Assembly (NCBI GenBank): GCA_902580855.1
Contig: CACHMF010000015.1
Span: 1-33,803, forward strand
DNA length: 33,803 nt
Source of the DNA: an uncultured Bacteroidota bacterium
GTDB lineage: Bacteria; Bacteroidota; Bacteroidia; Flavobacteriales; UBA7312
Direction: 5' to 3'
Below, one piece after another: positions 7,820 through 28,147 of the stretch (the first letter of the stretch is position 1; every line of letters begins with the position of its first letter). The notes beneath the pieces are model-generated. The model ran no database searches, had not been told where the DNA came from, and saw only the letters and a list, made by a program, of their open reading frames with translations. A program made the position numbers and the translations under genes.

Positions 7820-8145
7820 GATTGTAATAATTTTTCCGCAAAATGGTGGCAGAAATCACGCATATCTGCAGCCATTTTATCTTCACTAGTAGCGCGCTCC
7901 AAAGTATCTGCCATAGACACTAAAGTTTGATGAAAAAAATGCTTCATTTCATCTACGCGCATATCTTTTGTCCACAAATCAATACGCAAAGTTTCTTTGG
8001 TTTTCTCATCCCAAATAGACATTAAAATAGCTTTAGCTTCAGCCGCTTTTTCACCTGTATCGCTTGCCTCCCAACGAAGTTGTTCAGGGATGTTGTTTTC
8101 GTCTAATCCTACTTGAATATTGATGTTTGATGTTTTGTGTGCCAT
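7816..8145 (-). CDS. gldC: GldC, gliding-motility/T9SS-associated protein
   Basis: The 109-aa product ([18 protein letters not shown]...) matches the small GldC family, which in Flavobacterium is encoded next to GldB and supports gliding motility. It is rich in charged residues, has no signal peptide and is presumably cytoplasmic. The ORF track starts 40 codons too early, inside gldB. The ATG at 8145 overlaps the gldB stop as TAATG and gives the family's usual length. Exact biochemical role is unknown. Adjacency to gldB strengthens the call. Confidence 0.9.
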
Positions 8146-9104
8146 TAGGGTTTGTATTTCGATTCGTTTAACAATAGTTGCGCATCCGGAATAGCCATCA
8201 GCTCCTGTAATGTAGTGGTAGGATGACGATCCATATATGCTCTCACAATCTGCCAGCCAGTCCAAACAGCCACCCTTCCTGGAGACTCCTTTGGCATACG
8301 GCCAGAAAAAGGAGCCGGCTCCATATATTTAATGATTTGTTCGTGTTTGTTTGTGTACAGTAAGTTTTCTTGAATAAAGAATTGCCAAATAGAAAACTCA
8401 CTCGCTTCACACCATTCTATTTGTGCTTTTGTGTAACCCATTAAAACAGAATCAGGTGTGCTTGGCAACAACTGTGCCAAAACATATTGCAACCTTCCAT
8501 TTTGCACCATTTGCGACAAGAAATTTTGTTGCATAGTAGGATACTCCGTTTTTAACCATCCTTTCATTGCTAGAGCAGTCATATAGTAAGGCTGAAACTG
8601 CTGATGCATATACGAAGGATATTTTTCTCCTAATTTTTGATAATAGTCCGATTCCTTTCCTAAAAACATATCCAAACCGATACCAATAACGCTATCAGTG
8701 TTGGCTACAGGATAATTGAAGGCACCATAATACGTAACCACTCTAGGTGTTATATGATTTGGGAAATGATGATTATATCTTTGAATAGCTGTTGTCAATT
8801 CTTGCTCATACACCTCAAAATCAGCAAATGTATTTTTTACATCAGCGTACACTTTTTGATAAATGCTATCCTGCTGAAAACTTTTTAAAGCATCTGCAAA
8901 AGAAGAATCGCTAGGTAAAGAAAGAATATACTGATGATAAACTTCCCAAAAATATCCATACTCCTTTTGCAATGAATCTAAAGAAACCTTATCTGGATTT
9001 AACTCATACAAAGATTCCAAATGCTGTATAGAAACAGGAATTTGTGTTTTATCACTTACACAAGAATTTATACACAAGAAGATAAGGATTAGGTATTTTT
9101 GCAT
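8145..9104 (-). CDS. gldB: GldB, gliding-motility lipoprotein
   Basis: A 319-aa predicted lipoprotein. A short hydrophobic signal ends in INSC, giving a lipidated Cys15, and the mature protein is helical and Tyr/Gln-rich. The C-terminal PKESPGRVAVWTGWQIVRAYM resembles the GldB family, whose domain is distantly related to DUF2268-type peptidases but is not known to be catalytic. Known from Flavobacterium genetics: GldB is required for gliding and supports the T9SS machinery. It is followed by gldC with a TAATG overlap and is divergent from nadE. A perfect TAnnTTTG sits four bases upstream of the ATG. Confidence 0.9.
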   Translation of the reverse strand: MQKYLILIFLCINSCVSDKTQIPVSIQHLESLYELNPDKVSLDSLQKEYGYFWEVYHQYILSLPSDSSFADALKSFQQDSIYQKVYADVKNTFADFEVYEQELTTAIQRYNHHFPNHITPRVVTYYGAFNYPVANTDSVIGIGLDMFLGKESDYYQKLGEKYPSYMHQQFQPYYMTALAMKGWLKTEYPTMQQNFLSQMVQNGRLQYVLAQLLPSTPDSVLMGYTKAQIEWCEASEFSIWQFFIQENLLYTNKHEQIIKYMEPAPFSGRMPKESPGRVAVWTGWQIVRAYMDRHPTTTLQELMAIPDAQLLLNESKYKP

Positions 9105-9108
9105 TGTA

Positions 9109-9116
9109 CAAAATTA
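9109..9116 (-). promoter_or_regulatory. -7 element for gldB, abutting the start codon
   Basis: On the minus strand TAATTTTG is followed by only four bases (TACA) and then the gldB ATG. This predicts a leaderless or nearly leaderless mRNA. A clear -33 TTG at standard spacing is not seen. Confidence 0.55.
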
Positions 9117-9127
9117 CGCTTTTCTAT

Positions 9128-9135
9128 TACCTTTG
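9128..9135 (+). promoter_or_regulatory. -7 element for nadE, abutting the start codon
   Basis: TACCTTTG is a perfect TAnnTTTG, followed by four bases and the nadE ATG at 9140. An ATTG at 9103-9106, 21 bases upstream, could be the -33 element; it overlaps the gldB start codon. Transcription is predicted to start at or next to the ATG. Confidence 0.6.
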
Positions 9136-9139
9136 CATC

Positions 9140-9919
9140 ATGCAAACCCAAGCAATCATAAAACACATCTATCAGTGGATGCAGAACTACGCTAAAACAG
9201 CTAAAAGTGGGGGCTTTGTTGTGGGTATTTCTGGCGGTATTGATTCGGCTATAACCTCTACTTTAGCAGCTAAAACTGGACTTCCTGTATTGTGTGTGCA
9301 AATGCCTATTCATCAAGTATCTGCACAAGTAAGCAGAGCGCAAGAACATGTGGCATGGCTAAAGAAAAACTACCCAAATGTAAGCTCAGTTGATGTAGAG
9401 CTGTCCAACATTTATGACAGTTTTATTGATATGGTCCCTGCAGGGAAAGATAGTGAAAATCGTTCGCGTTCTTTAGTAAATACGCGCGCTCGTTTGCGTA
9501 TGACTACTCTATATTACTTTGCGCAACTACACAACTATTTAGTTGCCGGAACAGGCAATAAAGTGGAAGATTTTGGTATTGGCTTTTACACTAAATATGG
9601 AGATGGTGGAGTTGACTTGAGTCCTATCGCTGACCTCATGAAAACGGAAGTATTTGCTCTTGGAAAAACACTAGGTGTTTGTCAAAGTATTTTAGATGCT
9701 CCTCCAACAGATGGACTTTGGAATGACAACCGCACCGATGAAGACCAAATAGGCGCTACTTACCCAGAATTAGAATGGGCCATGACTTTTGAAGGAAAGG
9801 ATAACAACTTATCTCAAAGGCAAAAAGAAGTACTGACTATCTATCGCTCTTTTCACCAAGCAAACCAACACAAAATGATTCCCATTCCTGTTTGTGAAAT
9901 TCCAAAAGAACTGAAATAA
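9140..9919 (+). CDS. nadE: NadE, ammonia-dependent NAD+ synthetase
   Basis: Final step of NAD biosynthesis: amidation of nicotinic acid adenine dinucleotide using ATP. The 259-aa protein has the PP-loop SGGIDS near residues 32-37, the NTRARLRM and AGTGNK motifs, a GDGGVDL segment and the late PTDGLW motif of the NadE family. There is no N-terminal nitrilase/glutaminase domain, so it is the short form, which uses free ammonia. The ORF track start at 9104 lies upstream of the -7 element; the ATG at 9140 fits both family and promoter. It is divergent from gldB. Confidence 0.95.
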   Translation: MQTQAIIKHIYQWMQNYAKTAKSGGFVVGISGGIDSAITSTLAAKTGLPVLCVQMPIHQVSAQVSRAQEHVAWLKKNYPNVSSVDVELSNIYDSFIDMVPAGKDSENRSRSLVNTRARLRMTTLYYFAQLHNYLVAGTGNKVEDFGIGFYTKYGDGGVDLSPIADLMKTEVFALGKTLGVCQSILDAPPTDGLWNDNRTDEDQIGATYPELEWAMTFEGKDNNLSQRQKEVLTIYRSFHQANQHKMIPIPVCEIPKELK

Positions 9920-14199: not shown

Positions 14200-14207
14200 C
14201 AAAGATA
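14200..14207 (-). promoter_or_regulatory. -7 element for the mrp-nfu-korAB operon
   Basis: On the minus strand TATCTTTG is a perfect TAnnTTTG, followed by six bases and the mrp ATG at 14193. It overlaps the upstream TTG used by the ORF track, which argues against that start. A leaderless or very short-leader transcript is predicted. Confidence 0.6.
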
Positions 14208-15243: not shown

Positions 15244-15263
15244 CAAAAATAGGGCTATTTTTG
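15244..15263. promoter_or_regulatory. Palindromic divergent promoter between trmB and the glycosyltransferase gene
   Basis: CAAAAATAGGGCTATTTTTG is a perfect inverted repeat of 9 bp with a two-base centre. Each arm is a perfect -7 element (TATTTTTG) on its own strand, so two promoters sit back to back and point outward. The plus element ends four bases before the GTG start of the glycosyltransferase gene; the minus element ends 16 bases before the trmB TTG. Confidence 0.6.
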
Positions 15264-23483: not shown

Positions 23484-23548
23484 GCATTAAGTTTTTAATT
23501 AATGCAATTAATCAACACTAAAAAATGCCTCTTAAAGAGGCTTTTTTT
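23484..23548 (+). terminator. Terminator region after phoU
   Basis: The main terminator is GCCTCT-TAA-AGAGGC at 23527-23541 followed by seven T residues. A second stem-loop (GCATTAA / TTAATGC, 8-base loop) lies just upstream at 23484-23505. The T-tract runs directly into the promoter element of the next gene. Confidence 0.85.
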
Positions 23549-23555
23549 ATTTTTG
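23548..23555 (+). promoter_or_regulatory. -7 element of the LuxE-like gene, fused to the pst terminator tail
   Basis: TATTTTTG is a perfect TAnnTTTG, four bases before the ATG at 23560. Its first T is the last base of the terminator T-tract, so the two signals touch. Confidence 0.5.
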
Positions 23556-25010: not shown

Positions 25011-25033
25011 TAAAGTATTTTTATCTTGCGAAC

Positions 25034-26784: not shown

Positions 26785-26792
26785 TACCTTTG
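26785..26792 (+). promoter_or_regulatory. -7 element for the epimerase gene, abutting the start codon
   Basis: TACCTTTG is a perfect TAnnTTTG, followed by five T residues and the ATG at 26798. No Shine-Dalgarno-like sequence fits in between. Confidence 0.55.
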
Positions 26793-28139: not shown

Positions 28140-28147
28140 CAAAGCTA
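28140..28147 (-). promoter_or_regulatory. -7 element for the DUF4296 gene, abutting the start codon
   Basis: On the minus strand TAGCTTTG is a perfect TAnnTTTG, followed by five bases (TGTTC) and the ATG at 28134. It decides the start codon choice and predicts a near-leaderless transcript. Confidence 0.55.

Follow-up and report, generated by a model that had tools for sequence, protein, structure and literature searches.

TAnnTTTG elements placed 4-6 bases before start codons point to leaderless initiation as a second arrangement in an uncultured Flavobacteriales bacterium

The stretch of DNA studied here (the window, 33,803 nt) contains the divergent genes gldB and nadE, each preceded by a TAnnTTTG box only four bases before its start codon, and the question raised by this locus is whether such boxes are promoter -7 elements from which transcription would begin at or next to the start codon. 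The first-pass annotation had listed a perfect TAnnTTTG at 4-6 bases before seven genes, and all seven were present with the spacings given (Nx denotes the number of bases between TAnnTTTG and the start codon). For gldB (predicted leaderless coding sequence 8145..9104, minus strand; Pfam GldB_lipo, 1.8e-95) the element TAATTTTG lies at 9109-9116 on the minus strand, N4 to the ATG at 9104, and for nadE (predicted leaderless coding sequence 9140..9919, plus strand; Pfam NAD_synthase, 4.3e-46) the element TACCTTTG lies at 9128..9135 on the plus strand, N4 to the ATG at 9140. The other elements belong to mrp (TATCTTTG, 14200..14207, minus strand, N6 to ATG 14193; Pfam ParA/NUBPL, and FeS_assembly_P from residue 5), a glycosyltransferase gene (TATTTTTG, 15256..15263, plus strand, N4 to GTG 15268; Pfam Glyco_tran_28_C), a LuxE-like gene (TATTTTTG, 23548..23555, plus strand, N4 to ATG 23560), an NAD-dependent epimerase gene (TACCTTTG, 26785..26792, plus strand, N5 to ATG 26798; Pfam Epimerase) and a DUF4296 gene (TAGCTTTG, 28140..28147, minus strand, N5 to ATG 28134; Pfam DUF4296, 7e-16). 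Pfam profiles agreed with all seven gene names, that of the LuxE-like gene included, and TAHHTTTG is also matched by six of the seven elements, all except TAGCTTTG of the DUF4296 gene. An eighth, near match named at N4 of an 'NTF2-like' gene (TATCTTGC, 25022..25029, plus strand, N4 (GAAC) to ATG 25034) is weak and did not hold up: TAnnTTGY has no spacing peak genome-wide, the protein gave no Pfam match, and this sequence is probably not the same element as the seven. TAnnTTGY (SM5 of F. psychrophilum) was also considered as a second promoter motif for TATCTTGC and was rejected on the same lack of a genome-wide peak.

The window corresponds to contig 15 of a metagenome-assembled genome (MAG) of 1.34 Mb (75% complete, 34% GC), and the genome-wide analysis was performed on 65 of its 69 contigs (1.33 Mb). 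Genes were called on this sequence by our own dicodon score alone. Since the caller scores dicodons only, the choice of start codons was uninfluenced by upstream signals; it is also imperfect, and missed three of the seven window starts, that of nadE being placed 39 nt too late. A single motif, TAnnTTTG, was used for counting the leaderless class (N4-7) and the leadered class (N14-35), and chance levels were calculated from 100 dinucleotide shuffles of the upstream regions.

Within the window TAnnTTTG showed no overall enrichment (55 occurrences vs 50.5 +- 6.3 in shuffled sequence), and only its position relative to start codons is non-random. Over the 1.33 Mb the distances from TAnnTTTG to start codons were bimodal, with a peak at N4-N5, a gap, and a hump at N16-N29. 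The counts were 4 in total at N0-3, 36 at N4, 20 at N5, 7 at N6, 6 at N7, 11 in total at N8-13 and 178 at N14-35. Compared with the shuffles there were 56 vs 1.9 +- 1.4 elements at N4-5 (maximum of 7 in the 100 shuffles), 69 vs 4.2 at N4-7 and 170 vs 21.6 at N16-35, whereas N0-3 held nothing above chance (4 vs 4.2) and N8-N13 formed a nearly empty zone close to background. The first-pass annotation had proposed this comparison as a check, with a flat distribution counting against it; the distribution is not flat, and its sharp peak is split from the leadered hump. A peak at N4-6 was likewise seen for elements carrying a single mismatch in TTTG (70 vs a background of about 8 per position), and with these counted the leaderless set probably comprises some 110 genes.

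These counts bear directly on the possibility that the boxes are a chance product of AT-rich upstream DNA, of start-codon context or of upstream in-frame stops. The lack of overall enrichment in the window would agree with such an origin, as would the fact that at N4 the TA is in frame with the ATG, so that TAA or TAG would end an upstream frame. The excess over the shuffles at N4-5 stands against it, as does the raw pattern TAnnTTTG-N4,5-ATG, which occurred 110 times in the genome vs 49 for the reversed pattern and fell to the control level at N9,10 (66 vs 62). Furthermore N5 is out of frame, the N4-5 peak remained with TA[CT]nTTTG, which cannot form an in-frame stop, and the spacing is conserved at orthologues (see below). 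At the genome level chance is thereby refuted and we regard it as extremely improbable, while individual genes could still owe their box to it.

The claim that leaderless initiation would be frequent within one small window stands as to frequency but not as to place: the pattern is genome-wide, and most recognisable promoters are still leadered. Leaderless-class genes made up 7 of the approximately 36 genes in the window vs approximately 6% on average in the genome (binomial p = 0.007), a richness that we take to reflect the choice of a striking window. For a leaderless message, the GTG start of the window glycosyltransferase is unusual; GTG and TTG alternate starts showed no enrichment at N4-7 genome-wide, and the start codon was ATG in 67 of the 69 leaderless-class genes, ATG being favoured by our caller.

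Judged by their sequence, the seven TAnnTTTG boxes at N4-6 are identified as putative -7 elements of the Bacteroidota housekeeping sigma factor (sigma-A/ABfr). The known sigma-ABfr promoters of F. johnsoniae, F. psychrophilum and B. thetaiotaomicron (-33 TTTG / -7 TAnnTTTG) have the same -7 consensus, and they are further resembled here in the mostly non-G free positions, an A/T-rich patch near -18 and a weak or absent -33 box. In the 69 aligned leaderless-class elements G was scarce at the two free positions, as it was in the leadered class, and both classes have in common an A/T-rich patch 4-7 nt upstream and a preference for C/T after the element. No clear -33 TTTG was detected upstream in either class; since the promoters of F. 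johnsoniae likewise show little -33 signal (PMC6847099), this box is a weak criterion. The elements of the leaderless class also lie where heads of transcription units are expected: 51% of its genes are divergent from their neighbour, similar to 50% in the leadered class and compared with 16% among genes with no element, and another 30% are co-directional with a gap of at least 40 bp. A Shine-Dalgarno (SD)-like motif preceded only 10 of 1189 genes, and since its absence is general in Bacteroidota it is not diagnostic of leaderless mRNA; a 16S 3' end (anti-SD) was not found in the MAG.

Transcription starts 4 or 5 nt after the -7 element in F. johnsoniae (PMC6847099), and in F. psychrophilum the box occupies positions -12 to -5 (PMC9723704). 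If this spacing, which is borrowed from other genera, applies here, initiation 4-5 nt past the element would place the transcript 5' end on the A of the AUG or no more than about 3 nt away. With an element at N4-N5 the message would open on the A of the AUG or one nt ahead of it, whereas at N6-N7 a very short leader of 1-3 nt would remain in some genes. The ribosome would engage the 5'-terminal start codon with neither a leader nor a Shine-Dalgarno sequence. In the second arrangement in the genome, the element 16-29 nt upstream would result in leaders of about 12-25 nt. The N8-N13 gap would then correspond to leaders of about 3-9 nt that are avoided, presumably as they suit neither mode of initiation, and the sharp edge of the histogram lies at N4, below which the message would lose part of its start codon. 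The proposal that these mRNAs begin at or next to the start codon is thus supported by the distance histogram, the sigma-A context and the conservation of spacing at orthologues, with the start site itself deduced from the published spacing. Overall, we consider it very probable that the boxes act as sigma-factor -7 elements at N4-6 and give leaderless initiation at or near the AUG, as one of two arrangements in this genome.

A different outcome would follow if the elements were real promoters and the adjacent ATG was not the start, with translation beginning at a downstream ATG on leadered messages. The imperfect calling of starts from coding potential alone, as seen for nadE, leaves room for this. 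Orthologues were compared with a genome of another genus in the same family (G160, 145 orthologue pairs) and with one of another family (G174). In G160, 9 of 16 orthologues of leaderless-class genes were also leaderless (Fisher p = 3.6e-8), and in G174 3 of 8 (p = 0.013). Eight of the nine shared-leaderless pairs with G160 align residue 1 to residue 1, and the start codons are therefore supported. Matches to nadE in relatives open at residue 1, at the relatives' own start codons, in nearly all cases, and the start codon of the epimerase is fixed because its Pfam match opens at residue 2. In addition, wrongly placed starts would not cluster at N4-N5 with N0-N3 at chance. Translation from downstream ATGs is accordingly unlikely, and initiation at the adjacent ATG is retained. 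The Pfam-checked leaderless-class genes include those of class II tRNA synthetase, RbfA, RuvB, SmpB, DapB and TatD, which have core functions; the leaderless examples named for B. theta are transposases, sensor kinases and transporters.

It is marginally less likely still that the N4-6 elements act as minor or secondary promoters, with the main transcripts coming from farther upstream, either leadered or by read-through. Leaderless mRNAs are a minority in the start-site maps of F. psychrophilum and F. johnsoniae (PMC9723704, PMC6847099), and 19% of the leaderless-class genes follow a co-directional neighbour at short distance, both of which would fit secondary promoters. A second TAHHTTTG at N14-100 was found in only 1 of 60 leaderless-class genes, however, and conservation at a fixed spacing implies use. 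At the gldB/nadE locus the intergenic region (9105..9139) is 35 bp long and holds two outward-facing -7 elements 11 bp apart, so that both promoters must fit into the 35 bp or sit inside the opposite gene. This gap is also 35 bp in relatives from the host's family (family f1), where the gldB box is kept at N4 (there as TAATTTTA) and the nadE box lies at N7 vs N4 here.

Compact divergent pairs, with both genes in the leaderless class and 35-38 bp between start codons, were observed at 9105-9139 of the window and at C1:61384-61420 and C33:8996-9034 of the genome G000. Divergent -7 elements 11-14 bp apart were 14 in number vs approximately 1-2 per spacing elsewhere, and leaderless-leaderless divergent pairs numbered 5 vs 2.1 expected. 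Two reports on bidirectional, pseudo-symmetric bacterial promoters (PMC12825309, PMC10268837) describe a comparable compact divergent initiation in short intergenic regions; unlike those promoters, the -7 elements of gldB/nadE are 11 bp apart and do not overlap. A bidirectional promoter with a shared TA was rejected for the host genome, where 6 such patterns occurred vs 4-12 for control patterns, away from gene starts.

For comparison across genomes, the share of N4-7 among all N4-35 elements was calculated, and an excess per Mb (TAnnTTTG-N4,5-ATG minus the reversed pattern) was determined for 130 genomes. The share was 27% here (69/258) and, in small gene-called samples of 160-200 kb from each of four genomes, 31% in G160 (12/39), 29% in G174 (14/49), 30% in G041 (6/20) and 9% in G021 (3/32). 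By this same measure leaderless spacing is roughly threefold more frequent here than in G021, which is called Flavobacterium-like from its size and GC only. The excess per Mb was 38.7 +- 2.8 in family f1, 54 in f42, 65 in G041 and 9.1 +- 1.3 in f3, and in f16 and f22 it was close to zero. Among named genomes it was 68 in Flavobacteriales AC_MB403, 60 in NIOZ-UU86, 23 in Muricauda sp. CP2A and 11 in Flagellimonas allohymeniacidonis. Family f1 includes the public MAGs Bacter13 and HE327_NSB013 and the ERR599163 and ERR598955 bins, which are labelled only Flavobacteriales or Cryomorphaceae and whose sequences upstream of nadE agree with those of family members, as their pattern counts do with the counts of the corresponding genomes analysed here; these public bins suggest a marine family. 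Genome reduction was considered as a cause: the leaderless excess per Mb decreased with increasing genome size over 47 genomes of the order (rho -0.59), and over 14 families it gave rho -0.34 (p = 0.24). Since the family-level correlation is not significant, genome reduction is not claimed. Loss of bS21 was rejected as an explanation, this protein being present in 8 of 10 family f1 genomes including the host.

Outside the class, family f23 had 550 occurrences at N4-5 vs 230 in the control and 563 at N18-23 vs 632. Of 30 N4-5 ATGs sampled from three f23 genomes, 26 began an open frame of 100 codons or more, compared with 0 and 3 when the other frames were read. The N4-5 excess, with none at N18-23, suggests that f23 may be mainly leaderless, with N18-23 as the only leadered distances compared with the control.

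Leaderless mRNAs, the sigma-ABfr promoter and their combination (3.7-13% in three species) are already known. Leaderless mRNAs account for 5.5% in F. psychrophilum (PMC9723704), messages with leaders up to 10 nt for at most 13% in F. johnsoniae (PMC6847099), and those under 10 nt for 3.7% in B. theta; these values are mapped start sites whereas our 27% counts element positions, and the denominators differ. In the survey of Zheng et al. 2011 (PMC3160421), which took the E. coli -10 element as its reference, only one of 37 Bacteroidetes/Chlorobi genomes was reported to have leaderless genes. The leaderless mRNAs of Actinobacteria and Deinococcus-Thermus (PMC3160421) are alike in having a -10-like element some 12 nt ahead of the start codon and no SD; they differ in that the element is TAnnnT there and TAnnTTTG here, and in that most promoters here are leadered. 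New here are how often the leaderless arrangement occurs in this lineage, its conservation there and its uneven distribution over the phylum; no earlier report of these was found in the open-access literature. Taken jointly, the evidence inclines us to the reading that several Bacteroidota lineages, the host's family among them, hold leaderless sigma-A initiation as a standing, conserved second mode for core genes, and that f23 may have it as the main mode. If true, the phylum would not be uniformly leadered and SD-free as three model species suggest, and genes of both kinds, leadered and leaderless, governed by one promoter type would provide a natural system for studying start choice by non-SD ribosomes. 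As a practical rule, TAnnTTTG at N4-N5 would mark true gene starts in such genomes.

Several minor observations were made alongside. Two further genomes of the same class, G115 (N4-5 112 vs 47; N18-23 110 vs 142) and G072 (84 vs 41; 106 vs 115), are possibly leaderless-dominant because they have an N4-5 excess with none at N18-23. The f23 genomes G105, G113 and G136 (L260-L289) are GC-rich (57-61% in the loci checked), and a search of f23 for the green-sulfur FMO protein, run with no positive control, gave no match. In both f23 genera sampled a gene starting with MAGHSKWA (YebC-like) is in the leaderless arrangement, and in two f23 genomes (G136:C7:14076-14105, L261/L264; G113:C17:3101-3130) two divergent genes of this arrangement share one TA (CAAAACTAAATTTG in G136), with start codons approximately 24 bp apart. 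The nadE of the family member G165 (C3:52950-53715; L256, L257) is broken into two matches and contains one TGA, and is either a disrupted gene or an assembly error. Relatives of nadE with 63-68% identity occur in MAGs labelled Alpha-, Gamma- or Deltaproteobacteria (L130, L133, L134, L135, L138 and others), which indicates either horizontal transfer or mislabelled contigs.
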